Positions 1,172 to 22,487 of a stretch of DNA of 22,982 nt are shown one piece after another. Numbering within the stretch: position 1 is the first letter of the stretch; the number at the start of each line of letters is the position of its first letter. The DNA comes from a virus. Below the pieces are notes generated by a model, which saw nothing but the letters and a program-made list of their open reading frames with translations, was not told the DNA's origin and searched no databases. Location of the stretch: positions 1 to 22,982 of IMG/VR virus record IMGVR_UViG_3300027768_000062. One strand, 5' to 3'. A program made the translations under genes and the position numbers.

Positions 1172-2215
1172 ATGGGCGTTTCAATTCTACCTGGTAATTC
1201 TCGAACACCCTGGGATTTGATTGGAGAACTGACGGGACAAAACATATCTCAAAACCTTCCTGGAGCCATTCAGCAAGGATATAATCGTGGTGTAATGCAA
1301 CAATCATTAAATCAATTTAATCCTCAAGCTGGCGTCTTTGAGCAATTGAAGACTTTATCGCGTATGCTATCAGTTCCTGGCGGACCACAAACATTTGGAT
1401 TTTTACAGAGGGCGGAAGAGAATGCAGCAAGAAACAAGCAACTTGCTGACATATTTGGAAACAATAATCAAAATCAACCTCCAACAAATGGAGCGGGGCC
1501 CCAGGCTCAAAACGCTCGTGATTTCTCGAATATTTCAGATGAAGCTCTCGCTAGATTATCTATCGCCGATCCTCAAAGGGCAAACGCACTCCGGCAAATA
1601 GTCCAGAATCAGCGTCAGCAAAAGGCGGATAAACAAAGAGCCGATATCGAATCATTTTCAAATACTAAATTCAGTGAAGGTTATAAAGCCATTCAGGATG
1701 ATGACACGGCAGCTCTAAACGATATTATAAAAGATCCTCAAACCCCATATGATGTCAAACATCGGCTTAGTAATTTAAAGAATCAGCATGATGTGAGAAA
1801 AGATGTCAAAAATCGCGAAATACGAACAAGGCAGAATTATCTTAAGAGTGCGTACACGAAAGCGATCAATAAAGAGCGTGATAGATTAGACCATGTTCCC
1901 AGTAAAGATAAGCCTGAAATTGTCGAACGTATCAAAGACCTTGTTAGGAATCAGCGACGAGATATGAAGAAATTTGCTATAGATCCTGAAAGCTATCCTG
2001 AGTTAGGTATATGGGATACTGAGGCATCTCAGTATATTCCAGATGAAGAGTTTAACGAAGAGGGCTTAGGAGCAGAAGTCACACAAAAAGGTCAGAAAAT
2101 TCTTTTCAATCCTAAAAATCCAGAACATATAGCACGAGCAAAACAAGTTCTTGCGGAAGTCGGTGGGGATAAAGCCAAAGCTAATGCAATCCTGTTTGAG
2201 GAGTTTGATAAATGA
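1172..2215 (+). CDS. Unknown protein, probably virion-associated, 347 aa
   Basis: I do not recognise this protein. It is hydrophilic and helix-rich, with no signal peptide or membrane segment. Residues 1-60 are Gly/Gln/Asn-rich (start MGVSILPGNSRTPWDLIGEL), residues 80-105 are an Asn/Gln/Pro linker, and residues about 130-260 are highly charged and look like coiled coil. The last 30 residues (AKQVLAEVGGDKAKANAIL) look like a small helical tail. The start at ATG 1172 has AAGGA 7 nt upstream. Its TGA overlaps the ATG of the 1724-aa gene by 4 bases (ATGA), so the two are coupled. In many phages, one or two such helical proteins precede the giant internal or ejected protein; that role is inferred from position. 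Another possibility is a scaffold-like protein. Confidence 0.8.
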   Translation: MGVSILPGNSRTPWDLIGELTGQNISQNLPGAIQQGYNRGVMQQSLNQFNPQAGVFEQLKTLSRMLSVPGGPQTFGFLQRAEENAARNKQLADIFGNNNQNQPPTNGAGPQAQNARDFSNISDEALARLSIADPQRANALRQIVQNQRQQKADKQRADIESFSNTKFSEGYKAIQDDDTAALNDIIKDPQTPYDVKHRLSNLKNQHDVRKDVKNREIRTRQNYLKSAYTKAINKERDRLDHVPSKDKPEIVERIKDLVRNQRRDMKKFAIDPESYPELGIWDTEASQYIPDEEFNEEGLGAEVTQKGQKILFNPKNPEHIARAKQVLAEVGGDKAKANAILFEEFDK

Positions 2216-5200
2216 CCGCACCTGATTTTTTTGAGGGACTTGACAATGATGATGAATTTTTAAGACTTGAAGAACCATCATCCTCTAAAAAACAGCCATT
2301 AAGTTTACAAAATAACCCAACCAAACGCGCATCGATCGATGCGATTCCAGACTTTTTCGAATCAATTGACATAGAGCAGCCATCCGATCAAATGAGATCG
2401 AGCAGCCAAGGAACACCCAATTTCTTTGATGAAATGGACGATTCAGATGTCTCCAATCAGCAAGAGCCATCCATATGGGAACGAGCAAAGAACTACTTCA
2501 CAAGCGGCAAGCTTGGTGAGGCGGCGTCTCTCCAAATGCGCAGTGGGGGTTTTGCTGGGGCTCCAACACTGACGCCGGAACAGGCGAAGAGGGTCGGTAC
2601 AGAATTTGCGACCATTGCAGCGGTAGAAGCTGCCTTCGCCCCTGTTCTTGGATATGCAGCAGCCTCTCAAATTGCCCCTGGAATATTAACCGCTCTCACT
2701 AGACTTACTCAAGCAGCTACAACAGGCGCCGCAACAGCGACAACATCGAAATTAGTAGAAGAAGGCGAATTGCCGTCTCAGGAAGAATTGCTCGAACATG
2801 GAGTAACATGGATGGCAATTGATGCTGGACTGCAAGCTTTGCACGCAGGTGCTGTTGGAGGAAAGTACGCCTATGACTTCGGTGCGGCAGTTAATAAGAT
2901 TGCCAAAGAAGAAAAAGTACCGGCCACAAAGGTTTTAAGTAAACTGTGGGATTCGACTGTAAATTATATCAAAACGCGATTTGGCAGGCCGATCAATGCG
3001 CCACAGGACATAACCATTGAAGATGTGGCTATCCTCGTGGACAAGGCGAAACAGGCAGAAAAAGAGGGGCTACAAGAGGCATTAGAGGTTGAGCCTATCA
3101 AAGTAGAAAAACCTCAAAAGCCAAAGGCTCCTGAAGAGGCTGAGATAGAAAAACCCGAAGCATTAAAGCCTGAAGAGGAAATCAAAACTAAGACACCTCA
3201 ACAAATTGAGGCCAAAGAACCAAGAGAAGAAGAACCGATTGGCGGCAAGACATCTTTCACAACATCGAAAGGATCCACCTATACGGTTAATCCCGATGGT
3301 ACAACGACACGAGCGAAAGCCGCCAGGTTGGAACATGGAGGAGACGAAGGAATTCAGCCTACAAGTGAAAATACATGGTATCTCACTCCTGAAGATTCTA
3401 TGAAGCTTGGTGAGTTCCAGGCAAGAGGTGAAAACAAAAAGATTGTTGAACTCCCTAATGGCCAGCTTGGCGTTCAATATCTCACAGGCAAAGACAAAGG
3501 AAAAATAGAACAGAGAACCATCGTTGATTTCTCCAAGGAACCTAAAGAAGGAATGATCCCTGTTGAATCATGGCAAAATGGAGAGCGCATCCATTTCGGC
3601 AATGAAATAACGAAAGTCGAAAAGCCAAAAGGCGAAGCAAAAGTCATCGACGAGCGTGCTATCTTGAAAGATATCATGGATCTTAAGGATGAATTATCGA
3701 AAACGAATGGTACGACTAGAGCTATACAGCAAAAGAAGCAAGAACTCGCAGATGCCATTCGAGAAAAAGCTAGAGAGTTGAAAAAGGTGCGAGAACAAAA
3801 CAAGTCTCTAGAGCAGCCTACTTTCAAAAAAGTAGAACGTCCTGACATTACTCCAAAAGGGCTAAAGAAGCAAAAAGACTATATTCTCGACAAGATCGAT
3901 GATGCTATTGCCAATCCTCACGACACAAATCAGATTGTTATCGACGTTCCAGGCGATGGAGAGTTTAAGATTAATAATGAGCCTCGCATTCTTGAATCTG
4001 CACGCGATAAAATCGAAAAAGGTTGGCCTGTAAGGCAATTAAAAACAAAATCACCTACAGTGCTTAGGAAGGAAGAGGGCGCAGGAGTCCTAAAATCAAG
4101 GCTTCCAGAAGAGGGGGCAATGGGAGAGGAATTACCCAAGAGACCAACCCAAATTCCGCCATGGCAGACACGCCCTCGTCAGCCTGTTGTGGGTAAGAAG
4201 CAGGCAGTGGCACGCTCCAAGATTATAGAGCTATTCCGTACAGCCTTTACCGATCCTATTCGCCTTGGAAAAATCAGCCAAAGAAATGCAGTGGGCATTC
4301 ACAAACTATGGCCTAAAGTAACGCGTCTTCTCCGAGATAACGATATCGAAACAGTGGCCCATGAAATCGGGCACAATCTACATACGACACTATATGGTGG
4401 AGATGCAAAGACACCACAAGAACAAGCCCACAATATCAGCAATGCTTTGAGACCATATCTAGACGAGTTAAAGCCTCTCGCACACTATGAGCCCTGGGGG
4501 ATGGAGGGCTTTGCAGAGTTCACCCGGCTCTATGTCACTAATCCAGATGTGGCAAAGGAGCTTGCGCCTAAGTTCTACGACAAGTTTGAGAACGACATGA
4601 GGGCTGAGTACCCTGAGATGTTAAACGCGCTCCTGGAGGCCAGGGAATACTACGATGCCTATCTGCAAGGCACGCCTCAATCCAGGATAAGAGCTCAAAC
4701 AAGCTATGCTAGTGATAAGGGCAAACTCGCCAATATCATTGAAGCAGTGAAGAAAAAATTTCATCCCGATAAACTTAAGACAGAATTCTTGGATGACGTA
4801 TTTCCCGCCAAGCGGCTTGTGGCAGAGGCGTTTGGCATTCCGCTTTCAGAAGTAGAAAACCTGAAGGATGAGCGCAATCTTTACAGGGCCTTGCGTGTTC
4901 TGAAAGGAGCAGTTGGCAAAGGGGACGTCTTCGTCCTTCACGAGACATTCAATGCCAAGACCCTAGATAAGATCAATGGAAGCTTAAAAGATATCCTGAA
5001 GCAGCTTCCAAATGAAGAAGCGTATCGTGAATTCAATGATTATCTTATCGCACGCCGAGCTCTAGAAAAAACAGCACAGAATGTTGAGACTGGTATCAAC
5101 GCCGGAGATGCCTTGGCAGTTGAACAAGAATTACGTCCTAAATATGGGGAACTGGCGCAACAGCTCGACAAATACAACGACGCTCTTTTGAAATATGCTC

Positions 5201-7386
5201 TCGATGCAGGTCTCCTTTCTAGGGAACAGTATGTTATGATTAAAAAGAACAATGTTCTTTACACCCCTTTCCAACGTGTTATGGAGCCTGAGAAGGGAGG
5301 AGTAGCAGCTGGTGGTGGGCGACTCCAGGCCGGAAAGCCCATTAAGCGTATGAAGGGCTCTACCCGTGATATTATTGCGCCCGTTGAATCCATTCTAAAA
5401 AACACCTACAGCATTATTATCAATGCCGAGAAGAATTTAGCCGGTCAGGTGCTTGCTAATATTGCAAAAACTAAGAAGGATATAGGTACATATGTCGAGC
5501 ATGTGCCAACTCCCATAAAAGTTAAAGGTAAGATAGAAGGTGAACAGGTAGCAAAAGAGCTCGCAAAACGTTTTGAACGCGAAGGACTAAGCGATTTAAT
5601 CGAATATGATCAAGATGGCAAACCGGTTTTAAGAGAAGATATTGCTGATGCCATTCCAGAGGTGTTTTTACGGTTTGGGGCTGGCCAATATCCTGCTGGT
5701 GAAAACATTGTCACCGTATACTTTGAAGGCAAGCCGAAATACTATCAAGTGTCCCCCGAAATTTTTGAAATGTGGAACAAAGGGATCGCTCCTTATACGG
5801 CCGGATTACTTACCAAAATCCTACGCATACCGGCCAGAACATTGAGGGCAGGTGCTATCCTTAATCCAAAGTTCATTCAGAAAAACGTTATTAGGGACAC
5901 GTGGGGTAGCTGGCTCTTTACAAAATATGGCAAAGGCTTAAAAGCCCCTGTAAGTCTCTTCATAGACACGATCTATAGCCCCCTGTCGATGCTGGCAACA
6001 GCAGCAGTAAAAGGCGGCCTCTATGTGGAGTGGCTCAAATCAGGTGGTGGTATGTCCACGATGCAAAGCCTCGATCGAAACAATGTAACAAAGAAACTCA
6101 ATGAAGTCCGCGGAAAATGGCAAGGAATACAGCCTATCAAATGGCTCAGGCAGGCGGCAGAGATTAGTGAAGAGGTGAACCGCCTCTCTGAATTCGGTAA
6201 GGCGTTAGCTGTTGAGGGTAAAACAAGATTAGGTAGGGAAATAGCTGCCTTTGCCGCCAGAGACTTGAGCATTGACTTTGCGAAAATGGGGCTGCAAACT
6301 AAGGCGCTTAATCAAATTATTCCCTTTTGGAATGCGACTGTGCAGGGGGGAGACAAACTACTCCGCACAATGGCTAATCCCCAGGACAGAAAGAATTTCA
6401 TTCCCAGGATCATCGGTTTTATCGTGCTCCCTTCTCTCATGCTGGCATGGCTCAACAAAGATGACGAAAGAGTCAAAGAATTCTATGAAGAAGAGAAAGA
6501 TTTCAACTTCATTACATTTATTGGAGACAAAGCCATTAAAATCCCTGTGCCCTTTGAAACAGGTGTACTTGCTCATGGGCTTACGCAGCGCATGTTTAAT
6601 CATTTCATGAAAAAAGACCCTGAAGCCTTCGAGAAATTCATGGGTAGTATTCTATCTGCGATGTCTCCGAACTTCATCCCTGCCTTTGCCAATCCAGTGA
6701 TAGAAGCGTATGCAAATAAGAACTTCTTCACGGGTGCAAGAATTGTCCCGATGGGGCAAGAAGGGCTTATATCGAAATATCAATATAAGCGCACCACGTC
6801 GGTTACAGCTCGGCTATTAGGTCGTGCCATGGCATATATGCTAGGACAAGAGACTAGGTCAAAGGCAGCATCCCCGGCGATTATAGACCATTTTATCAAT
6901 GCCTGGGGTAGTGGCCTTGGTCGGCAGATGATAAACATTTCTGACGCTTCCCTAGAAGCTGCTGGGCTAAGCGATAAGATACCTGGGCCGAACCAGGCAA
7001 TCACCGAGAAATATGAGCTCGACGCTTTCACTGCAAGATACCCACGTGCTAGCACCCGCAGCATAGAGAAATTCTATGACAATTATGCAGATGCAACAGC
7101 CCGCAAAAAGTCCTTAAAACATGCCGAAAAGATGGAGCTTGCTACAAAGGAAGAGCAAGAAGCGGCATACCAGCGCTTTGAGAAGATCTATGACTACAAC
7201 ACCTTACAACATGCTTATAAGGCGATGCAGAACTGTCAGCGAGAGATCAATAACATTTGGAATGATCCTAGCATTGACCCTAAACTCAAAAAACAGTTTA
7301 TCGACGATCTTTACTTGGAGATGATTCAATTTGCCAAAGATGCTAACGAGGATATTCGACAGTATCGGTTAGTTCAAGAAGACTAA
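2212..7386 (+). CDS. Giant polyvalent/ejection-type protein with HExxH metalloprotease and LPD38-like region, 1724 aa
   Basis: The protein resembles the large polyvalent proteins that phages and plasmids deliver into cells with their DNA. In order: an acidic N-terminus with three copies of a P-[D/N]-F-F-[D/E]-x-[L/I/M]-D motif (residues 4-11, 46-53, 69-76); an Ala-rich hydrophobic stretch (about 132-175) that could touch membrane; a Lys/Glu/Pro linker (about 285-345); a charged, partly coiled-coil middle; a zinc-protease site HEIGH (717-721) followed by EGFAEF (765-770), whose Glu would be the third ligand, as in gluzincins; helical regions (830-1150); and from about 1195 a stretch (LNPKFIQKNVIRD, then RLSEFGKAL) that I match to LPD38 from memory. 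Hydrophobic IIGFIVLPSLMLAWL lies near 1400. It is coupled to the preceding gene by a 4-base overlap. Likely roles are processing host or own protein, or a DNA-entry conduit. The protease motif is clear; the delivery role is inferred. Confidence 0.85.
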   Translation: MTAPDFFEGLDNDDEFLRLEEPSSSKKQPLSLQNNPTKRASIDAIPDFFESIDIEQPSDQMRSSSQGTPNFFDEMDDSDVSNQQEPSIWERAKNYFTSGKLGEAASLQMRSGGFAGAPTLTPEQAKRVGTEFATIAAVEAAFAPVLGYAAASQIAPGILTALTRLTQAATTGAATATTSKLVEEGELPSQEELLEHGVTWMAIDAGLQALHAGAVGGKYAYDFGAAVNKIAKEEKVPATKVLSKLWDSTVNYIKTRFGRPINAPQDITIEDVAILVDKAKQAEKEGLQEALEVEPIKVEKPQKPKAPEEAEIEKPEALKPEEEIKTKTPQQIEAKEPREEEPIGGKTSFTTSKGSTYTVNPDGTTTRAKAARLEHGGDEGIQPTSENTWYLTPEDSMKLGEFQARGENKKIVELPNGQLGVQYLTGKDKGKIEQRTIVDFSKEPKEGMIPVESWQNGERIHFGNEITKVEKPKGEAKVIDERAILKDIMDLKDELSKTNGTTRAIQQKKQELADAIREKARELKKVREQNKSLEQPTFKKVERPDITPKGLKKQKDYILDKIDDAIANPHDTNQIVIDVPGDGEFKINNEPRILESARDKIEKGWPVRQLKTKSPTVLRKEEGAGVLKSRLPEEGAMGEELPKRPTQIPPWQTRPRQPVVGKKQAVARSKIIELFRTAFTDPIRLGKISQRNAVGIHKLWPKVTRLLRDNDIETVAHEIGHNLHTTLYGGDAKTPQEQAHNISNALRPYLDELKPLAHYEPWGMEGFAEFTRLYVTNPDVAKELAPKFYDKFENDMRAEYPEMLNALLEAREYYDAYLQGTPQSRIRAQTSYASDKGKLANIIEAVKKKFHPDKLKTEFLDDVFPAKRLVAEAFGIPLSEVENLKDERNLYRALRVLKGAVGKGDVFVLHETFNAKTLDKINGSLKDILKQLPNEEAYREFNDYLIARRALEKTAQNVETGINAGDALAVEQELRPKYGELAQQLDKYNDALLKYALDAGLLSREQYVMIKKNNVLYTPFQRVMEPEKGGVAAGGGRLQAGKPIKRMKGSTRDIIAPVESILKNTYSIIINAEKNLAGQVLANIAKTKKDIGTYVEHVPTPIKVKGKIEGEQVAKELAKRFEREGLSDLIEYDQDGKPVLREDIADAIPEVFLRFGAGQYPAGENIVTVYFEGKPKYYQVSPEIFEMWNKGIAPYTAGLLTKILRIPARTLRAGAILNPKFIQKNVIRDTWGSWLFTKYGKGLKAPVSLFIDTIYSPLSMLATAAVKGGLYVEWLKSGGGMSTMQSLDRNNVTKKLNEVRGKWQGIQPIKWLRQAAEISEEVNRLSEFGKALAVEGKTRLGREIAAFAARDLSIDFAKMGLQTKALNQIIPFWNATVQGGDKLLRTMANPQDRKNFIPRIIGFIVLPSLMLAWLNKDDERVKEFYEEEKDFNFITFIGDKAIKIPVPFETGVLAHGLTQRMFNHFMKKDPEAFEKFMGSILSAMSPNFIPAFANPVIEAYANKNFFTGARIVPMGQEGLISKYQYKRTTSVTARLLGRAMAYMLGQETRSKAASPAIIDHFINAWGSGLGRQMINISDASLEAAGLSDKIPGPNQAITEKYELDAFTARYPRASTRSIEKFYDNYADATARKKSLKHAEKMELATKEEQEAAYQRFEKIYDYNTLQHAYKAMQNCQREINNIWNDPSIDPKLKKQFIDDLYLEMIQFAKDANEDIRQYRLVQED

Positions 7387-8170: not shown

Positions 8171-9250
8171 ATGATAACTAAAACGATATGTTGCAAGCTT
8201 CTTACAAATCCAGCTTCTTTTGAAGCGCTCAAGGAAACAAGTATTGCTTTTGCCGCTGCTTGTAATTTCGTCCTTAGGGGTGCAATTGCGGAAAAAACCC
8301 ATAATGCTATCAAACTGCATCATCTGTTTTATTTTGATGTGCGTCGGCTGTATGGGCTTTCCGCTAACTTGGCAGTAAGAGCGAGCCGTCGAGTAGTTGC
8401 GTGCATGACAAAGCTTAAAGGAAAAAGAAAAACGCCTAAATTGTTTAAACCTAAAAGTATTGATTACGATGCCAGGATATTTAATTTCCAAGAAATCGAT
8501 GAAACTGTTTCCCTTACGACTATCAAGGGAAGGATTAGAATCCCTCTTATCCTTGGCGAGCATCAAAGAAAAGCCCTCCTCGGAAAAAACCCCACATCTG
8601 CGACAGTAATCAATAAGGCTGGCGTTTGGTATATCCATATGGTTGTTGAGGAGAACACAGATCCAAGTCCCGGCAAAGAGATAATGGGCGTTGATCTTGG
8701 CATTACGAATATAGCTACCACATCTACTGATCTGATGGAATGTGGCAGGTCTAGGCAGCAATTCAAGCAAAAAAGAGCAGCAGTTAGAGCTAGCCTTCAA
8801 TCTAAAGGCACAAAAGGTGCTAAAAAAGTTCTTAAGAGAATTTCGAATAAAGAAAATCGTAGAATCAAATACGAAAACCATGTTCTTTCTAAAAAACTTG
8901 TCGAGGAAGCTAAAAGGCACAATTGCGGCATCGTCCGCATGGAACGGCTGAAAGACATCCGAAGCAGGACAAAGACGTGGAACAAACATCTTAATCGCAT
9001 GGTGGCCGGATGGAGCTTTTACCAGTTGCAGCAGTTTGTTGAGTACAAAGCTGGCAAGGCTGGTATTGCTGTCGAATATGTTAATCCTGCATATACTAGT
9101 CAAACTTGCCATCAATGCTTGAAATTAGGCTCCCGTAAAGGAGAGCGGTTTAGTTGTGCAACCTGTGGTGACCAACATGCTGATGCCAACGCATCTCGTG
9201 TGATAGCCATAGGCGGGGCGTCCGTAAATACGCCTAAATTAGCAGCGTAA
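8171..9250 (+). CDS. tnpB: TnpB, RNA-guided nuclease of the IS200/IS605 family
   Basis: TnpB is the ancestor of Cas12: it uses an omega RNA, made from the end of its own element, to cut matching DNA. The RuvC residues are all present: Asp175 (MGVDLGITN), Glu258 (GIVRMERL) and Asp338 (HADANAS). Between the last two lies a complete zinc ribbon, Cys313/Cys316 and Cys329/Cys332. The N-terminal WED/REC part (1-165) is full length, and 359 aa is near the family's usual 370-400. The enzyme therefore looks catalytically intact. No tnpA is adjacent. The ribosome site before ATG 8171 is weak, which is common in this family. The right-end hairpin lies 12 bp after the stop and should form part of the omega RNA. 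Confidence 0.92.
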   Translation: MITKTICCKLLTNPASFEALKETSIAFAAACNFVLRGAIAEKTHNAIKLHHLFYFDVRRLYGLSANLAVRASRRVVACMTKLKGKRKTPKLFKPKSIDYDARIFNFQEIDETVSLTTIKGRIRIPLILGEHQRKALLGKNPTSATVINKAGVWYIHMVVEENTDPSPGKEIMGVDLGITNIATTSTDLMECGRSRQQFKQKRAAVRASLQSKGTKGAKKVLKRISNKENRRIKYENHVLSKKLVEEAKRHNCGIVRMERLKDIRSRTKTWNKHLNRMVAGWSFYQLQQFVEYKAGKAGIAVEYVNPAYTSQTCHQCLKLGSRKGERFSCATCGDQHADANASRVIAIGGASVNTPKLAA

Positions 9251-10391: not shown

Positions 10392-10429
10392 ATAAAGACA
10401 CTGTTTTGGTGTCAATTAGGTGTCTTTAT
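10392..10429. repeat. 11-bp-phased box cluster 1, at the end of the HigA gene
   Basis: GGTGTC occurs at 10408-10413 and 10419-10424, exactly 11 bp apart, and an inverted box (GACACT, 10397-10402) lies one more 11-bp step away. The outer parts form a perfect 10-bp inverted repeat ATAAAGACAC (10392-10401) / GTGTCTTTAT (10420-10429), whose right arm overlaps the stop codon of the antitoxin gene. It could act as a binding site of the RHH protein or as a transcript-end hairpin; there is no T-tract. Confidence 0.55.
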
Positions 10430-10713
10430 GCGCAGCAGTTAACTAGTTTTGCTAATGTCTTTATCGTTGGGTTTTTCCCTTTAAAAGCATGATACATCGT
10501 TGCTCTCGACAAATCGGTTGCTTGAGCGGCTTTAACCTTATTAACAATTTCTAAATGTGTTTCGATAACTTCAATAACACCCTGAGGATCATTGTTTTTT
10601 AGACATTCCCAAACGGCTTCGGCAATGAAAGTTTCATCCAACAGTCGCTCAGTTGCGCTGTATTCAATGACCTTTGCATCTTTTTTTAGCTTCAAGTTAG
10701 ACTTAGTTTTCAT
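10426..10713 (-). CDS. HigA-type antitoxin (addiction module antidote), 95 aa
   Basis: The neutraliser and DNA-binding repressor of the HigB-type toxin encoded just before it. The C-terminal half is a helix-turn-helix of the HigA antidote class: the pattern VNKVKAAQATDLSRATMYHAF then KNPTIKTLAKLVNC matches family members in which the second repeat of helices reads the operator. I start it at ATG 10711-10713 (MKTKSNLKLKKDAKVIEY), which overlaps the toxin's end by 11 bp and has GGAG 11 nt upstream; the longer frame from 10770 lies wholly inside the toxin gene and is unlikely. Toxin-before-antitoxin order is the rule for HigBA. The stop sits inside box cluster 1. Confidence 0.85.
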   Translation of the reverse strand: MKTKSNLKLKKDAKVIEYSATERLLDETFIAEAVWECLKNNDPQGVIEVIETHLEIVNKVKAAQATDLSRATMYHAFKGKNPTIKTLAKLVNCCA

Positions 10714-11005
10714 CTTCTGTATACTCCGCGAGGATTTTCTTCGCTTGTGAGATATCGTAGTTTTGACCATTTTTATTACCTCCTAGCAAAATTAAAATAT
10801 TTGGATCAGACAGGTACGCATAGTAAACTCTACGACCATTTTTCCATTTCAACTCCCAAACATCATCTCCAACATCATTGATTGTGCCAAAATACCCATC
10901 CGTTTCAATCTTTGAAATTCTTTTTTCGATCTGTACTTGTGATTTTAGACTTTCATCAGCCAGCCAGTCATCGAATTCTGTAGTTTTTATTGCCTTGTAA
11001 AGCAT
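10703..11005 (-). CDS. HigB/RelE-type toxin (addiction module killer protein), 100 aa
   Basis: A small ribonuclease-type toxin of the Gp49-like/TIGR02683 class, which acts on mRNA at the ribosome. The family pattern is clear: FDDWLADESLK near the start, IEKRISKIETDGYFGTINDVGDDVWELKW in the middle, then GRRVYYAYL, ILILLGGNKNGQ and the closing DISQAKKIL. I chose ATG 11003-11005 (MLYKAIKTTEF), because GAGGAG lies 4 nt ahead; the frame opens four codons earlier with no ribosome site. It overlaps the HigA-type gene by 11 bp. The upstream 80 bp hold a GACA-TTC-TGTC palindrome (11038-11048) that may be the module's operator. Confidence 0.88.
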   Translation of the reverse strand: MLYKAIKTTEFDDWLADESLKSQVQIEKRISKIETDGYFGTINDVGDDVWELKWKNGRRVYYAYLSDPNILILLGGNKNGQNYDISQAKKILAEYTEDEN

Positions 11006-11037
11006 CCTACTCCTCATTCATAATGTATCATATATTA

Positions 11038-11088: not shown

Positions 11089-11337
11089 CTAGTTAAATTT
11101 TTCAGCAACCGCTTCAAGAATCCATTGATTTCTTGAAACATTTCCGACGCGTATTGATCGATCTTTATCAATCTTTTCGATCATCTTTTGCGGGATGCGA
11201 AGCGTGAAACGTATTTCCTCGTCAGTCTTCGGCTGATGTTCTACATCTGCGGTTGTTTTCCCACCTTTATTTATGATGGTGTCAATATCATGTTGAATGA
11301 ATTTAGGTGTCTTGGGAGCTTTCTTTTTTACAGTCAT
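11089..11337 (-). CDS. Ribbon-helix-helix partition partner of ParA (ParG-like), 82 aa
   Basis: The last 40 residues form a ribbon-helix-helix: strand IRFTLRIP (42-49), helix KMIEKIDKDRS, turn, and helix NQWILEAVAEKF. Residues 1-40 are a flexible, Lys-rich tail. This matches ParG/Omega-type centromere-binding proteins (about 75-80 aa), whose tail stimulates the ATPase of a small ParA and whose RHH dimer binds short repeats. It follows parA by 40 bp on the same strand. That 40-bp gap is made of four boxes at 11-bp steps, and its AGGA ribosome site is among them, so the protein may repress its own synthesis. The RHH fold is clear; the partner role is inferred from adjacency and size. Confidence 0.8.
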   Translation of the reverse strand: MTVKKKAPKTPKFIQHDIDTIINKGGKTTADVEHQPKTDEEIRFTLRIPQKMIEKIDKDRSIRVGNVSRNQWILEAVAEKFN

Positions 11338-11340
11338 TTT

Positions 11341-11379
11341 AGTGTCATCCTGGTGTTATTGTGGTGTTTATTTGGTGTT
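11341..11379. repeat. 11-bp-phased box cluster 2, between parA and the RHH gene
   Basis: Four boxes begin at 11341 (AGTGTC), 11352, 11363 and 11374 (each GGTGTT), exactly 11 bp apart, that is one per DNA helical turn on the same face. They fill the whole gap between the parA stop and the RHH start. Direct repeats at regular helical spacing are what RHH partition proteins bind as centromere or operator. Confidence 0.75.
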
Positions 11380-12013
11380 AACTAAAAAGAGCTGAGCTCA
11401 GTTGCCTTATTTCAGCGATCGCTTTTTTATCTTGAGTTTTCAGTTCGATTATACCCAAACCCTCAGCAGCCGCATTAGCAAATGCTTTGCGCTGACCAAT
11501 AGTAGATGGCAAATAAGTAATACCGTCGCTTTCTTTAAGGATATCAGCGGCATCTTGATTATCTACTCCCTGAGGATCTGCTCTATTAATGACGGCATAC
11601 GCCTTGAGTTTTGGATTCACTGTACGTATTTCTTCGACCAAACTGACTACTTTTCCGATAGTCCATACATCTAAACTGCGCGGTTGAAATGGAGTTAAGA
11701 AAAGATCAGCAACAGTCAGAGCACTCCTTTGACTATTTGTGTCCCTTCCACCAGCATCCACAATAACATCGTCATAGTCGCTGGCCATCTTTAATAATTG
11801 AGAGCGAATGGTTGGCCCTAAAATCTGAACCGTTGTCCAGGGTGTTGTTATCCCTAGATTTTCCCTGTGTTCTGCCCAATCAGAAGCGCTGCGCTGTTCG
11901 TCAGCATCGACTAAAAGAACTCTCTTACCTTCAAGAGCCCGAATAACAGTTAGATTTGTGGCGAGAGTGCTTTTACCACTCCCACCTTTAATGCCCCCGA
12001 TAACAATAATCAT
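11378..12013 (-). CDS. parA: ParA-family partition ATPase (ParF-like), 211 aa
   Basis: A small ParA/MinD-type ATPase that moves the plasmid to the cell halves. The deviant Walker A is KGGSGKST (residues 9-16) with the signature Lys9; switch I is DADEQRSASDW; Walker B is DDVIVDAGGRD. At 211 aa, without an N-terminal DNA-binding domain, it belongs to the short type Ib (ParF) class, which works with a small RHH partner, encoded next in the same direction. A promoter (TTTACA, 17 bp, TAAAAG; 12079..12107) and GAGG 8 nt before the ATG precede it. Box cluster 3 covers the expected transcription start, so autoregulation by the RHH partner is likely. Confidence 0.93.
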   Translation of the reverse strand: MIIVIGGIKGGSGKSTLATNLTVIRALEGKRVLLVDADEQRSASDWAEHRENLGITTPWTTVQILGPTIRSQLLKMASDYDDVIVDAGGRDTNSQRSALTVADLFLTPFQPRSLDVWTIGKVVSLVEEIRTVNPKLKAYAVINRADPQGVDNQDAADILKESDGITYLPSTIGQRKAFANAAAEGLGIIELKTQDKKAIAEIRQLSSALFS

Positions 12014-12191: not shown

Positions 12192-13313
12192 ATGAATTCC
12201 CATCTTACCGACCAGCAGTTGGCGAATGAATTAGCTACGCGTTACCCTCAAGGAGTGTATCCTGTATTTGCAAATGCAATAAATGAACAGGGTCAATCTT
12301 TAGGCGTTGACATCATAAATGGTCCTATTGCTGTTATCGACGAAACTGATTGTGATTATTCTCTAAAGGCTGACCAGTACATTAATGCTGCGACGCCGCC
12401 AAATACAAAACGCGCCTACATCGGAGATATTCAATATTTTATGCAATGGCAGATTGCTGTATTCGGTAGGACAAATTGGCCTGTTACGGAAGAGATCACC
12501 ATTCAATTTATCTTCCATCATCTCCAAGAAATGCCTGTTGAGGTTGAAAACCATCTATTAGCTAGTGGTTGGAAAAAACGTCGTGGCCTGCACTCGGTAA
12601 ATACAGTGAAACGTCGCTTGGTAAGCGTTTCTATCTGGCATAATATGAATGGTAAAAAAAGCCTATGTGACTCTCCAAAGGTTAAAAGCTTGTTGTCTGC
12701 TATGGTAAAGACACAAGGAAAACAGAAAAAAAGTAAAGCGATCACTAAAAATGTTTTGGAAAACCTGTTGGTTACATGTTCTGATAATTCTCTTATTAGT
12801 ATCAGAGATAAAGCTCTGCTTCTTTTTGGATGGGCAAGTGGAGGTCGACGCAGATCTGAAATCGCGAATGCTGTTTTTGAAAATCTTGAGGAGACGGAAG
12901 AGGGTGATTTTATTTACACCATTGCAAAAAGTAAGACAGACCAGTCTGGAAAGGGACATGACGTCCCTATTAAAGGGTTGGCAGCTACAGCTCTAAGGGA
13001 ATGGTTAAAACTATCTGATGTTACTAGTGGGAACCTGTTTAGATCAGTCAGTAAAGGTGGGACTATAGGGAAAAAGATCACAGACGTCGACATCAATCGG
13101 ATTGTAAAAAAGCGTTGTGAAAAAGCAGGCTATGACCCTTCATTATATTCTGCGCATTCTTTGCGTAGGGGATTTATTACTGAAGCAGGAAAGCAGGGAT
13201 GTCCTCTTGGTGATGCTATGGCTTTGACAGGTCATAAAAGTGTCAATATAGCCATGGGGTATTATGAAAGCGGCGCTGTCATTAATAACAAAGCAGCAAA
13301 TCTGATGCTATAA
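12192..13313 (+). CDS. Tyrosine recombinase/integrase, 373 aa
   Basis: A phage-integrase-family enzyme that cuts and rejoins DNA at specific sites. The catalytic set is complete: Arg220 in GGRRRSE, a Lys in AKSKTDQSGKG, His322 and Arg325 in HSLRRGF, His348 in GHKS, and Tyr357 (Tyr358 is adjacent). Residues about 50-165 are the SAM-like core-binding domain. I start at ATG 12192 (MNSHLTDQQLANELATRYP), which has AAGGA 8 nt upstream; the frame opens 20 codons earlier at a TTG inside the inverted repeat, which is unlikely. On a circular plasmid with a loxP-shaped site next to it, multimer resolution is a likely role; integration into the chromosome is the alternative. It reads away from parA, and box cluster 4 begins 1 bp after its stop. 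Confidence 0.92.
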   Translation: MNSHLTDQQLANELATRYPQGVYPVFANAINEQGQSLGVDIINGPIAVIDETDCDYSLKADQYINAATPPNTKRAYIGDIQYFMQWQIAVFGRTNWPVTEEITIQFIFHHLQEMPVEVENHLLASGWKKRRGLHSVNTVKRRLVSVSIWHNMNGKKSLCDSPKVKSLLSAMVKTQGKQKKSKAITKNVLENLLVTCSDNSLISIRDKALLLFGWASGGRRRSEIANAVFENLEETEEGDFIYTIAKSKTDQSGKGHDVPIKGLAATALREWLKLSDVTSGNLFRSVSKGGTIGKKITDVDINRIVKKRCEKAGYDPSLYSAHSLRRGFITEAGKQGCPLGDAMALTGHKSVNIAMGYYESGAVINNKAANLML

Positions 13314-15499: not shown

Positions 15500-18136
15500 A
15501 TGACACAAGCAACGGTAGAATTTCAACCAGAAATTCAAGCAAGAACGATTTCGGAGTTGCAAGAACAAGCCCGGCAACAAATGCTAACTTATGGCTTCTA
15601 CTTTGATGGCCTATTTGACACAAGCGGCAAGCGCATAGATTTTTGTGGGAGACAAGGCGATAGAAGAAAGACCGAATGGTACATAGCCTCTCTGGATACT
15701 GATTCAAAAGGAAGGCAATGGCTTCGAGTTACCTACAATTCACATCACGACACCTTAAAATCGGATAAAAACTACACATTTAACAGCACAACTGGCGCTT
15801 CTCTAAATGATCATGAGTTGAACGAACAAAAAGCACGAGTTGCTGCCATGCAACAAAAGAGACAACAGGAACAAGGTGTTGAAGAAAGAAAACAACAAGA
15901 AAAAGCTAAAACAGATCGAGATCGATTCAATAAAGCATCCGATGAAGGGCAATCAACATATCTTTCAAGAAAACAAGTAGGAGCGCATGGGATTCGATTT
16001 GAAAAAACTGGAAATGAGGCAGTAATTCTCGTTCCAATGCGTGATGAGAACGGGGAAATTCAAGCATTGCAAGAGATCTACGAAACAAAAAGGACATTCT
16101 GGAACGAAACAAAACCAAGAGATAAAAATTTTACTAATGCCGTCAAAGGTCTTTTTCATGTCATAGGGAACATTGTCGATGGTCAATTAATTCGTGTATC
16201 AGAAGGCTATTCGACGTCAGTTAGTTGCTATGAAAGCACAGAATGCACCGCCCCTCATGTCGTCGCCTTTTCAGCTGGAGCATATAAAACCATAATTCCG
16301 ATTCTAAGGAAACAATACCCAAATAGCTTCATAAGCATATGCGCAGATAACAATGTGAGAGATAATCCCGAGGAAGAAAATACGGGGGTAAGAGAAGCAG
16401 AAAGAGCTGCTAAAGAAACCGATAGATGCTTTGTTGTTTATCCGATCTTTCCTGAAGGTAAAGAAAGAGATGAAGAAGGAAACCGATACGCTGATTTTAA
16501 CGACCTAATGATTGCTGAAGGCAAAGAAGAGGTGCGAATGCAGATCGAAAATACCACTTATTCAAATGATACAGAGGAAGCAGAATCTTTAATAGACGGG
16601 CAATCAGAGAATGAATACGATTCTACTGACATATCAAAAGCGACGGCAAACGCTCGTCGCAGAGCTATTACAAATCAAGTAACACTTGATGACATTATCA
16701 GAGATATTCGCAAACAACACCCAACACTTAAAGATCAAGCCAAAGATATAGCAACGAAAGCGTTATCATGGGCCAAAAACTTTCAAACAGGTTTCGAGAT
16801 AATTGTTAATGGTATTCCTAAAACAATAACTGATATGAAGTCACTTGATTCACGTTTAGCACAACTCGAAGCACCAGGACAACCTTGTGTAATAGTTAAT
16901 CGTAAGGACGCACTGCCTATCACCAATGCCGACTATAACAAAAGATTAAGTGGCGAAGTTGTCGTTGTGGGAGTGAACGAGAAGGGACAGCCTAAATATG
17001 TTGCTGCAAATAAATTTTGGGAGGGAAACACTCATAAACATATCTATCGCAACATTGTATTTACTAATAAACAAACAAACAAGAATGACTACAATCTATT
17101 TACCGGATTTGGAGTTGAACCAAAACAAGGAAACTGCGAAAAAATTCTTAATCACATCAAAGATGTTGTTTGTTCTGGTAATAAAACTAATAATACAGCT
17201 CTTCTTAAATTGCTTGCCTGGCAAATGCAAAACATCGGTAGACCTTCACGTATCATTACAGGTTTACAAAGCATTGAACAGCAAGTTGGAAAAGGATGTT
17301 TATTAGGTGATGTCCTTGCTCCAATTTATGGAAATGCTGGATTTACAACCAGCGATATCGGACAAATTATAGGTAGATTTAATGATACAATACGCGGCAA
17401 GGCTTTTATTTTCTTAGATGAATGCTTATTTGCAGGTGATCGAAAAGCTGCTGATGCAATTAAATCCTTGGCAACTGCTACACGTATAGGCGTGGAGTCC
17501 AAAGGAGTCCCAACAGTACAATTTCCATGTGCAGCAAACATATTCCTTTCAACAAACCATCCTGATGCCGCTCATATTGAGGAAGCAGACGCTCGTTATT
17601 GGATTTTAGAAGTTAAGCCTCATCGCAAAGGAGACACCAATTATTTTGAAAAGTTATATGCTGAGATCAATGGTGGTGGCCTTTCAGCTTTCATGCATTA
17701 TTTACTGAACCTTGATGTCAGAGAGTTTGTCCCTCAACGAGACGTCCCTATAGATAACGAAGCGAAAAATACAATGATTAGGAACTCGATCAATCCCTAT
17801 GACGCTAGGAAATGGCTTGAAGACTGCTGTCATACACACATGATTTTAGGCTGCACTCCTAGAGAAGAATATAAACAAGCCGGTTACCGATGGGAATTTT
17901 GGAAAAAAGGCGAGGAATATGAAAACGGCGTATTTTTTACAGCTTATGCCGAATGGCTGAAAAATGTTAAGTCGCCTGTCGCGCCAAAACCAACGGCAGC
18001 GAATAATTTTGGTGCATTGTTAAATACCGCAGGTTTTGAATCACGAAGAGACGCACAAAGACGACGAACACTACCAGACCCAAGCGAATGCTTAAAAAAA
18101 GTGACAGAGATGCTGGAAAGTAAAGGTAAAAAATGA
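15500..18136 (+). CDS. Primase-helicase replication protein (TOPRIM + SF3/DUF5906-type), 878 aa
   Basis: The likely replication initiator of the element. Residues 1-110 are an unassigned N-terminal part and 110-150 a Gln/Arg/Lys-rich coil. Residues about 165-320 are a TOPRIM-type primase domain, with Glu235 in SEGYST and Asp283 in CADNN; the usual DxD is only partly kept. Residues about 500-780 are a phage-type SF3 helicase: a Walker A-like QQVGKG (Gly597, Lys598), Walker B IFLDE (Asp640, Glu641), and a sensor STNHP (Asn686) followed by a DARYW arginine-finger region. The first glycine of the P-loop is missing. The fusion of primase and SF3 helicase resembles phage P4 alpha and many plasmid Rep proteins, whose origin is often adjacent; a repeat-dense region follows here at once. 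The ribosome site at ATG 15500 is poor. Confidence 0.88.
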   Translation: MTQATVEFQPEIQARTISELQEQARQQMLTYGFYFDGLFDTSGKRIDFCGRQGDRRKTEWYIASLDTDSKGRQWLRVTYNSHHDTLKSDKNYTFNSTTGASLNDHELNEQKARVAAMQQKRQQEQGVEERKQQEKAKTDRDRFNKASDEGQSTYLSRKQVGAHGIRFEKTGNEAVILVPMRDENGEIQALQEIYETKRTFWNETKPRDKNFTNAVKGLFHVIGNIVDGQLIRVSEGYSTSVSCYESTECTAPHVVAFSAGAYKTIIPILRKQYPNSFISICADNNVRDNPEEENTGVREAERAAKETDRCFVVYPIFPEGKERDEEGNRYADFNDLMIAEGKEEVRMQIENTTYSNDTEEAESLIDGQSENEYDSTDISKATANARRRAITNQVTLDDIIRDIRKQHPTLKDQAKDIATKALSWAKNFQTGFEIIVNGIPKTITDMKSLDSRLAQLEAPGQPCVIVNRKDALPITNADYNKRLSGEVVVVGVNEKGQPKYVAANKFWEGNTHKHIYRNIVFTNKQTNKNDYNLFTGFGVEPKQGNCEKILNHIKDVVCSGNKTNNTALLKLLAWQMQNIGRPSRIITGLQSIEQQVGKGCLLGDVLAPIYGNAGFTTSDIGQIIGRFNDTIRGKAFIFLDECLFAGDRKAADAIKSLATATRIGVESKGVPTVQFPCAANIFLSTNHPDAAHIEEADARYWILEVKPHRKGDTNYFEKLYAEINGGGLSAFMHYLLNLDVREFVPQRDVPIDNEAKNTMIRNSINPYDARKWLEDCCHTHMILGCTPREEYKQAGYRWEFWKKGEEYENGVFFTAYAEWLKNVKSPVAPKPTAANNFGALLNTAGFESRRDAQRRRTLPDPSECLKKVTEMLESKGKK

Positions 18137-18140
18137 ATTT

Positions 18141-18404
18141 CTCGACAGACCGACGGACTCGACACACAATTTTTCCCAACTCCCACAAAATGCGGTATAA
18201 GGAAAGTCTAAATTCTTTATACCGCGTTTTTGGCACATTGAGAAAAAAAGTCTGTCTTATGTGTCGAGTCTGTCGAGTTTCATATATAAGCCTTTAATTA
18301 TCACTGAGTTTTGATATTAGACAGACTTATATATATATATATTAAGTCTGTCTAAGTGTGTCTATAGCTCGACAGACTCGACAGACTTAGACACACTTAG
18401 ACGC
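18141..18404. other. Putative replication origin: many GACAGAC/GTCTGTC repeats around an alternating TA core
   Basis: Seven exact GACAGAC/GTCTGTC copies lie here: 18144, 18250, 18268, 18320, 18346, 18371 and 18380 (start positions), with GACACAC/GTGTGTC variants at 18161, 18356 and 18390. Two arms TAGACAGACTTA (18318-18329) and TAAGTCTGTCTA (18343-18354) enclose 13 bp of alternating TA. A second perfect pair, TAAGTGTGTCTA (18353-18364) / TAGACACACTTA (18388-18399), encloses a tandem CTCGACAGA repeat. An easily melted core flanked by repeats, next to a primase-helicase gene, is how initiator-dependent origins are built. No DnaA box was seen. Inference, but the structure is visible. Confidence 0.65.
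18192..18231 (+). terminator. Intrinsic terminator of the primase-helicase gene
   Basis: 13-bp arms GCGGTATAAGGAA (18192-18204) and TTCTTTATACCGC (18213-18225), one mismatch, 8-nt loop, then GTTTTT (18226-18231). A strong terminator 56 bp after the stop codon, embedded in the left part of the origin-like region. Confidence 0.8.
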
Positions 18405-18447
18405 GGTTTATACAAGAGCAAAAAGAGTACATAACGGAGGAGTTGTA

Positions 18448-18933
18448 ATGAATGTCGAAATAGTCGAATTTTACCCTATTGAGCGGAAGGAGGAGAAGGA
18501 TTTCCTAACTGGAACACTTCGGATTAGGCTCCCTGACATAAAGCTCCAAATTCTTGGCATATTTGTTACGAAGAATAAGGATTCCTGGTTTTTTGCCCTT
18601 CCTGGACGGAAAGGGATCGATCACAAAACTGGTAATGCGGTTCGATATCCATTTATCGCGTTTGACGATCGCCAGATGCAAAAAGAACTAATCGAAGCCT
18701 TAAGAGAAAAAGTTCCCGCATTCATTGGAAAGCGACTTGCGGATACAGAGAATCCTCTAGTGTTTCCACCCAAAAGGCGTAACCCAGAAGACAAAGCAGG
18801 GATCGCGGCTAATGAGGGTGTTGTGGTAGAGAAAAGAGAGGAAAGACAAGAAAGGCAAAACTTGGCTATTGCAGGCAAGGTCTGGCAAGATCCGCCTCCA
18901 AGGAAAGACATATACAATAGGAAACGAAAATAA
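18448..18933 (+). CDS. SpoVG-like small nucleic-acid-binding protein, 161 aa
   Basis: Residues 1-90 resemble SpoVG in order of strands: VEIVEFYPI, then LTGTLRIRLPDIKLQILGIFV, then WFFALPGRKG (SpoVG has LFVAMPSKR at this place), YPFIAF and the final helix MQKELIEALREKV. SpoVG proteins bind DNA and RNA and regulate many genes; plasmids and phages carry relatives. Residues about 105-161 are a Lys/Arg/Glu-rich, probably unfolded tail (VVEKREERQERQ). A very good ribosome site (GGAGG, 7 nt) precedes the ATG, and it is the first gene after the origin-like region. The next gene's ATG follows its stop directly (TAAATG). The homology is remote, by eye. Confidence 0.55.
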   Translation: MNVEIVEFYPIERKEEKDFLTGTLRIRLPDIKLQILGIFVTKNKDSWFFALPGRKGIDHKTGNAVRYPFIAFDDRQMQKELIEALREKVPAFIGKRLADTENPLVFPPKRRNPEDKAGIAANEGVVVEKREERQERQNLAIAGKVWQDPPPRKDIYNRKRK

Positions 18934-20509: not shown

Positions 20510-20941
20510 ATGCCAGCACCACTAAATCACCCGCCTTATCCTGGATGCGAAACAGGAGGACGGCCAACAAAATACACGCAGGAATTCATTGAAGAAGAAG
20601 CTGATGCTTTCCTCGCATGGATGAATAAACCTGGCTCCATTTACTTCAAACGATTTGCAGTTGATAGAGGGTATCACCCTAACCGTCTTGCTGAATTTGC
20701 AGAACAAAACGAAAAGTTTTCGTGCGCGTATGAAAGAGCGAAGGCATGGCAGGAGATGCGGCTCGTTGAAGGTGGCCTTCTGAATGAGTTTAGCGGCAGT
20801 TTTACAAAGTTTGTGATGGGCAATGTGTGCGGCTGGACTGATCGCGTCGAAACGAAAGTTTCAGGCGATGCGGTCAACCCGTTAACTTTCCTTTTGCAGC
20901 AGGTCGACGGAAAAACAAAGGATCTGGTCAATGAAAAGTGA
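20510..20941 (+). CDS. Terminase small subunit (probable), 143 aa
   Basis: The DNA-recognition part of a phage packaging motor. It shows the small-terminase pattern: GGRPTKYTQEFIEEEADAFL at residues 17-36, then YFKRFAVDRGYHPNRLAEFA, a helix-turn-helix-like region, and ERAKAWQEMRLVEGGLLNEFSGSFTKFVMGNVCGWTDR, in which the closing NxCGWTDR is typical of this family. Its last 11 bp overlap the large-subunit gene, the usual coupling. GGAG lies 6 nt before the ATG. Because both subunits are kept together and look intact, packaging of this or a related DNA is probably under selection. Confidence 0.85.
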   Translation: MPAPLNHPPYPGCETGGRPTKYTQEFIEEEADAFLAWMNKPGSIYFKRFAVDRGYHPNRLAEFAEQNEKFSCAYERAKAWQEMRLVEGGLLNEFSGSFTKFVMGNVCGWTDRVETKVSGDAVNPLTFLLQQVDGKTKDLVNEK

Positions 20942-22487
20942 AATTCTGGAGGAGGCCGAGAAAAACCTTAGAGATCCATTATGGCGTCTCAACAATTTTT
21001 ATTGGATTATCGATAAAGAGGGCCACAAAACGCGCTTCAAAATGAACTGGGCGCAAGAGGAGCTTTACCGCGGCCTCTGGTATTGTAACATTATTTTGAA
21101 GGCGCGTCAGCTAGGTGTGAGCACTTTTGTGTGTCTCTTGTATCTAGACAGGTGTCTATTCAATAGTAATTGTTCCGCAGGGATCATAGCGCATACCAAG
21201 GAGGATGCGGAAATGTTATTCAGACGAGTCAAGTTTGCCTATGAGAATTTGGCTTCAGAGCTACGCTCGATTCGTTCCGTCAATATGGACAATGCGCGGG
21301 AGCTTCAGTTCAATAATGGATCGTTGTTGCGTGTTGGTACGAGTATGCGAGGAAGCACCTTGCAATATCTTCACATCAGCGAATACGGTAAAATCTGCTC
21401 TAAATATCCGGAGAAGGCTAGAGAGATCGCTACCGGTTCTTTGAACACGATTGCAGCTGGACAATATGTCACCATCGAGAGTACGGCTGAGGGACGCTCA
21501 GGTGGATTTTATGAGATGTGTAAGCTAGCCCAGGATATGCAGGACTCTAAACAGTCACTTTCAAAGCTCGATTACAAGTTTTGGTTCTTCCCTTGGTGGA
21601 AGCATCCTGACTATACTATAAGCCATGAAGGTGTGCCGATCCCACAGGATCTAAGAGATTACTTTGATGGCCTCGATAAAAATGAAAAAATCACCCTTAC
21701 ACTAGGGCAAAAGGCTTGGTATTCCAAGAAGTACATGACGCAAGGGCTTGATATGAAGCGCGAATACCCAGCTACACCTACAGAGAGCTTTGCTACAGCT
21801 AACGAGGGTTTGTATTATGGCGCGCTGTTGACAAGAGCTAGAAATGAAGGAAGGATCAGGAAAGTTTACGAAGAAGAAAACGCACCTGTCCATACAGCTT
21901 GGGACCTTGGTTTTTCAGACAGTACGGCTATCTGGTTTTTCCAAATCTGTGGGCAGGAAGTCCATTTATTGGAATATCACGAAGACAGCGGAAAACCTCT
22001 TACACACTATCTTAAACTAGTTAAGGACAAGCCATATTCTTATGGAAAACATTTTGTTCCACATGATGCCGGGCAGCGCGAATATAGTTCTGGTGCGTCT
22101 AGGGAAGAGGTGGCCCGCGCTCATGGAATCAATTTCACAATCGTTCCTAACCTTAAGATCATCGAAGGCATTGACGCTGTCAGAAACATGATCAATCGAT
22201 GCTGGTTCGATGAAGAGAAGTGCGCTGTTGGCATCAGGATGCTAGAAAGCTATAAGCGCGGCTGGGATGATAAGCATGGTTGTTGGAAGCAAGACCCCGT
22301 ACACAATGAAGCAAGCCACGGGGCGGATGCTTTTCGCTATCTCGCGTTGAGCTTGCAGGATACAAAGCCAGGGATGACAAAAGAGGATTTAGATAGACTG
22401 AGAGCTAGAAGCGGATATGCGAATAAATCGCAACCACCACCTTTTCATAGGCCACAGTCGATGCCTACCCAGGCGTATCGATTCTAA
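20931..22487 (+). CDS. Terminase large subunit (packaging ATPase and nuclease), 518 aa
   Basis: The motor that cuts concatemers and drives DNA into a phage prohead. ATPase part: a Walker A of the KARQLGVST type (57-65), Walker B YLHISEYGK with Glu151, and the coupling motif ESTAEG (183-188). Nuclease part: the three acidic residues of the RNase H-like fold, Asp325 (AWDLGFSD), Asp379 (PHDAG) and Asp466 (HGADAFRYL). All motifs are complete and the length is normal, so it should be active. It overlaps the small subunit by 11 bp. The C-terminal tail (KSQPPPFHRPQSMPTQ) is duplicated in broken form at 1024-1065. No portal gene follows, which is where nearly all tailed phages have it. Confidence 0.95.
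   Translation: MKSEILEEAEKNLRDPLWRLNNFYWIIDKEGHKTRFKMNWAQEELYRGLWYCNIILKARQLGVSTFVCLLYLDRCLFNSNCSAGIIAHTKEDAEMLFRRVKFAYENLASELRSIRSVNMDNARELQFNNGSLLRVGTSMRGSTLQYLHISEYGKICSKYPEKAREIATGSLNTIAAGQYVTIESTAEGRSGGFYEMCKLAQDMQDSKQSLSKLDYKFWFFPWWKHPDYTISHEGVPIPQDLRDYFDGLDKNEKITLTLGQKAWYSKKYMTQGLDMKREYPATPTESFATANEGLYYGALLTRARNEGRIRKVYEEENAPVHTAWDLGFSDSTAIWFFQICGQEVHLLEYHEDSGKPLTHYLKLVKDKPYSYGKHFVPHDAGQREYSSGASREEVARAHGINFTIVPNLKIIEGIDAVRNMINRCWFDEEKCAVGIRMLESYKRGWDDKHGCWKQDPVHNEASHGADAFRYLALSLQDTKPGMTKEDLDRLRARSGYANKSQPPPFHRPQSMPTQAYRF

Follow-up and report, generated by a model that had tools for sequence, protein, structure and literature searches.

The window analysed here, a 22,982-bp stretch of viral DNA, very likely carries at 18141-18406 either a cis-acting replication origin or a cis-required region resembling crr of phage P4. 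The primase-helicase whose gene lies directly upstream would read this block. The sequence-only reading had described the region as origin-like, and this description held up: the block is linked to the helicase, recurs with the same grammar in two relatives, and matches the layout of P4 crr and of PICI origins. As the window is a fragment, another origin may lie outside it.

A repeat array immediately 3′ of the primase-helicase gene

The array occupies a noncoding block of 311 bp (18137-18447) between the primase-helicase gene and the next ORF. Counting pairs of shared 7-mers gave 115 in this block versus a mean of 7.6 and a maximum of 20 in shuffled sequences. By this measure it was by far the highest 300-bp bin of the window, in keeping with the earlier claim of a repeat density without parallel elsewhere. 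The window holds eight copies of the word GACAGAC, of which seven, at least as many as had been noted by eye, fall within 18144-18386. These seven start at 18144, 18250 (-), 18268 (-), 18320, 18346 (-), 18371 and 18380. Scanning the remainder of the window for the same word returned a single stray copy, at 12935. By chance, the whole window would be expected to hold a mean of 1.47 copies and five at the most; none of 100 shuffles reached eight. An Rfam search returned no match in the window.

Individual sites were scored in the window and in two relatives using one degenerate pattern, CTCRACRSAC, with up to three mismatches. The relatives were a viral contig (L002), whose helicase is 65-66% identical over the whole protein, and a Parachlamydiales genome contig (L003), for which the identity is 50%. 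In the window, the scoring revealed about 13 candidate sites of nine to ten bp, distributed over ~270 bp in five oriented blocks. The features of the locus were as follows:

15500..18136, plus strand: primase-helicase gene, 878 aa, the proposed initiator, with an N-terminal primase-like half, a DUF5906 helicase and a C-terminal winged-helix-like end
18141..18167, plus strand: block A, three direct iterons by pattern scoring (starts 18141, 18149, 18158); L002 7607, 7616, 7625; L003 7539, 7548
18187..18230, plus strand: hairpin with a stem of 18 bp and a loop of 8 nt, separating blocks A and B (RNA fold z -7.6)
18250..18277, minus strand: block B, three reversed iterons (starts 18250, 18259, 18268); L002 7717, 7726, 7735; L003 7650, 7659, 7668
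18282..18342, no strand: least stable 60-bp stretch of the window by nearest-neighbour stability, proposed to be the unwinding element, with the 30-bp minimum at 18314-18344
18317..18326, plus strand: site C, a single forward iteron that follows the last B site at 49 bp (same distance in L002 and L003) and falls in the left arm of palindrome 1
18330..18342, no strand: alternating TA core between C and D; the relatives are AT-rich there, but not alternating TA
18346..18365, minus strand: block D, two reverse iterons (starts 18346, 18356); L002 7814, 7823; L003 7747, 7756
18368..18406, plus strand: block E, forward iterons (starts 18368, 18377, 18387, and a degenerate one at 18397); L002 7836, 7845, 7855, 7864; L003 7769, 7778, 7789
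18448..18933, plus strand: next ORF, 161 aa, without a family match; its place behind the array is conserved in L002 and in a chlamydial genome, L079

With the first site starting at 18141 and the primase-helicase gene ending at 18136, the array is immediately 3′ of this gene, as it is in L002 and L003.

The predicted protein contains the two parts sought in an initiator, a primase part and a helicase part of the SF3/D5 type. Specifically, residues 70-657 matched a PHROG DNA primase (E 8e-60), and Pfam DUF5906 was matched at E 1.4e-14. Relatives of the protein also matched VapE-like/D5 models. Pox_D5 and RFX wHTH matches were located at the C-terminal end in the aligned helicase family; the window protein by itself gave no Pfam hit for a C-terminal winged helix. 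AlphaFold modelled both the helicase half and the last 114 residues poorly, with pLDDT values of 58 and 54, respectively. Using hhalign, the protein aligned with P4 alpha over the helicase core only, and the profile similarity was weak (probability 14, E 0.002). A separate observation concerns the history of the gene. The helicase half (residues 395-878) is 87% identical to that of L002 versus 66% for the whole protein (window 15500-18136, L002 4899-7601), and the N-terminal half thus looks exchanged by recombination.

Conserved arrangement and changing words

Both relatives have a noncoding block in the same place behind the primase-helicase gene, and the repeat excess was far above that of shuffled sequences in all three phages. 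The order and orientation of the sites were also common to the three: A(+++)-hairpin-B(---)-C(+)-D(--)-E(+++ or ++++), with two sites, not three, found in block A of L003. Start-to-start distances in the window, L002 and L003 were 49, 49 and 49 bp from B to C, 29, 30 and 30 bp from C to D, and 12, 13 and 13 bp from D to E. The main words were CTCGACAGAC in the window, CTCAACGGAC in L002, and CTCAACAGAC and CTCAACACAC in L003. Because order, orientation and near-spacing were kept but the words differed, GACAGAC is a word private to one phage. It was rejected as a conserved box since the word changes in the relatives. An arrangement that is kept while its letters change is what would be expected if one changing protein read all of the sites. 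Word similarity rose with helicase identity (Mantel r 0.43), although shared ancestry of whole loci may contribute to this correlation.

The sequence-only reading had also described two interlocked palindromes. Both exist, they overlap, and they have one arm in common. The arms of palindrome 1 (18317-18329 and 18343-18355) are perfect, as described, but they are 13 nt long rather than 12. Its core, the 13-bp TATATATATATAT at 18330-18342, was indeed unique in the window. Palindrome 2 pairs 18343-18362 with 18380-18399 at 90%, and a subset of it, 18350-18364 with 18388-18402, is perfect. The perfection seen in the window was not shared by L002 and L003, in which the palindromes are imperfect. 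As read from the site map, the window palindromes are C facing D and D facing E, and are side effects of inverted iterons.

Duplex stability, hairpin and GC skew

Nearest-neighbour energies placed the weakest duplex in all 22,982 bp at 18314-18344, a 30-bp segment around the TA core. This segment is located between C and D, such that iteron sets flank an AT-rich, easily melted stretch.

The hairpin between blocks A and B has counterparts in both relatives. In L002, the stem is similar with changed bases (z -6.2); in L003, a hairpin of unrelated sequence occupies the same place (z -4.9). The window hairpin is probably a transcription terminator or insulator, a prediction based on its placement just behind the primase stop, as behind P4 alpha and pRN1 orf904. 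It possibly acts as a priming site. Of the terminator that had been proposed in this region, the hairpin was confirmed; a simple terminator scan did not score 18187-18230, and the T-run is short. For these two reasons, the terminator role is kept as a prediction.

GC skew had been suggested as a check on the origin, with a switch near 18.3 kb. No switch was found there. The skew gives no support to an origin because it is dominated by gene direction.

Association of the array with helicase genes

To score repeats behind genes, a downstream-repeat test was used with P4 crr as the positive control; the latter, located behind alpha, scored z 19. A strong downstream array (z of at least 5) followed 20 of the 37 related helicase genes versus 2 of 105 control gene ends from the same loci, and the remaining 17 helicases stayed below z 5. 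In none of the window, L002 and L003 was the array upstream of the helicase; it was always downstream. Among the chlamydial and viral relatives, the excess was likewise downstream, and upstream scores were near chance except in L058 and L060 (z about 9). In L058, a viral contig, a second repeat-rich stretch lies upstream of position 965, before the primase-helicase, and is possibly a second P4-like array.

These comparisons bear on whether the array is instead a packaging (pac/cosB-like) site, whose repeats would be bound by the small terminase (TerS) to mark the packaging start. The genes for TerS and the large terminase (TerL) do lie within about 2-3 kb downstream in the window, and arrays stand directly before the small terminase in L012 and L021. 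Nevertheless, array and terminase were dissociated in four loci or genomes. In L003, the helicase is the same and the word is related, yet the next ORF is no relative of the window TerS and the genome contains no relative of the window TerL. Conversely, L012 has a TerS that is 50% identical, but a different (AAA_25) helicase and a different word, TGAACAAA. L070 and L073 have TerL proteins that are 72% and 78% identical, respectively, but lack both a strong array and a match to such a helicase. Moreover, the distance to TerS varies, whereas the array always abuts the helicase gene. As it is the helicase and not the terminase that the array accompanies, the packaging site was rejected, and we consider it very unlikely. 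Judged from these gene and repeat comparisons, the array tracks the helicase.

The gene order of the window was found again in L079: SF2 helicase, DUF5906 helicase, array, 161-aa-like ORF, RusA, TerS and TerL. The array word in this genome is CCGTCCA. Strong iteron arrays were also observed directly behind AAA_25 (RepA-type) helicases, which stand in place of DUF5906, in chlamydial prophages (L012 427-594, L021 381-594, L072 4401-4700); the words of these arrays were TGAACAAA and TGAGACT. Finally, positions 1-240 of a chlamydial contig, L078, hold a dense TTCGACA/TGTCGAA array, whose word is close to CTCGACA of the window. The helicase gene of L078 would fall off the contig start.

Two further roles were weighed against the same data. 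Replication initiators often autoregulate, and an operator array for a regulator of the primase operon, or of the transcript starting before 18448, would suit the intergenic position, the hairpin and the downstream gene start. However, as an operator the array would be very large, its spacing is kept across 270 bp while the words change, and it follows the helicase gene in phages with different downstream genes. We therefore regard an operator as improbable. Still harder to credit is that the array serves as a centromere-like site for partition by the ParA encoded at 11378-12013: although a ParA-like gene is present in the window, it lies at a distance of >6 kb next to a small ORF of its own, and the array follows the primase-helicase rather than ParA. 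We hold this reading to be extremely improbable.

Proposed mechanism

In the preferred reading, an origin or crr-like region served by the primase-helicase, the putative C-terminal winged-helix domain of the helicase would bind the iterons in each of the oriented blocks A to E. The weakest duplex of the window lies between the convergent C and D sites. Helicase rings could then load from both sides, melt the TA core and unwind, after which the primase half would begin DNA synthesis. The A-B hairpin would stop the primase transcript and shield the block from transcription, as is thought for the terminators of P4 alpha and pRN1 orf904.

A broader proposal is that DUF5906-type primase-helicases of tailed phages, those of Chlamydiota included, generally have as their origin a swappable iteron ladder, with steps of 8-10 bp, that lies directly behind the gene, each initiator reading a private word in a shared grammar. 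We see this generalization as evenly poised between right and wrong. Looking in the literature for a general rule that places iterons behind phage primases, we found pRN1 and unrelated papers only.

Host, other genes and implications

The large terminase gene (20931-22487) encodes a protein up to 78% identical to proteins from Chlamydiota genomes and at most 48% identical to those of catalogued phages. TerL matches were present in 25 of 234 Chlamydiota genomes and point to tailed phages or prophages of environmental chlamydiae. Judging by these protein matches, Chlamydiota are very probably the group that the phage infects or in which it resides. No description of tailed phages of Chlamydiota was found in the literature searched.

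Several other window genes were read by eye from their translations. An IS605-type TnpB-like ORF with C-terminal Cys pairs (8171-9250) appears to be inserted in the phage, two adjacent minus-strand ORFs (10426-11017) resemble a HigB/HigA toxin-antitoxin pair, and a 1724-aa ORF (2212-7386) resembles large polyvalent, possibly injected, phage proteins. In addition, a ParA-like ATPase and its small neighbour ORF (11089-12013) may constitute a partition module, a hint of a plasmid-like stage.

The origins of most phages are unknown, and the downstream-repeat test offers a route to candidates. As the test recovers P4 crr and flags 20 of the 37 helicase loci, origins and initiator-word pairs could be catalogued computationally. 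The present block provides a candidate origin for tailed phages of Chlamydiota, and natural initiator/word pairs could be used to study DNA recognition. If the general proposal for iteron ladders is true, origins and initiator specificity would be readable from sequence alone.

Comparison with known systems

Like the window, P4 has short iterons directly behind its primase-helicase gene (TGTTCACC, annotated as type I), some of them 9 bp apart and in both orientations, and an annotated terminator lies between alpha and crr. P4 uses a different word, and its protein differs from that of the window over most of the sequence. In P4, crr consists of two 120-bp repeats, and replication starts several kb away, at a second array. 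Since the array behind alpha is thus a helper site and not the start, the window block may not be the start point itself.

In plasmid pRN1, the origin is located just downstream of the primase-helicase gene orf904, with a putative terminator stem-loop between them, and the C-terminus of the primase-helicase is a winged helix (PMC4234260). The pRN1 system differs in having an iteron-free origin, made up of a large stem-loop, and a primase of the archaeo-eukaryotic type.

Among phages, S1, H4907 and ZQG1 encode related primase-helicases followed directly by a two-orientation iteron array (z 24, 32 and 24, respectively). Their words and hosts are other than those of the window, and the arrays are not labelled as origins in the annotated features shown. 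The same downstream-repeat test detected no such array in phages AXL3 and CN1.

The PICI origin is immediately 3′ of the initiator gene and has two iteron sets flanking an AT-rich region; the pri-rep-ori segment was shown to replicate, and each element has its own iteron (PMC6092414). The PICI/SaPI elements thus resemble the window in having an origin behind the primase/initiator gene and iteron sets around an AT-rich stretch. They differ in that PICIs are satellites, whereas the window belongs to a tailed phage and its array comprises five oriented blocks and encloses a hairpin. Going by arrangement, the window element is best filed with the P4/PICI-type modules in which a primase-helicase gene is followed by its ori.
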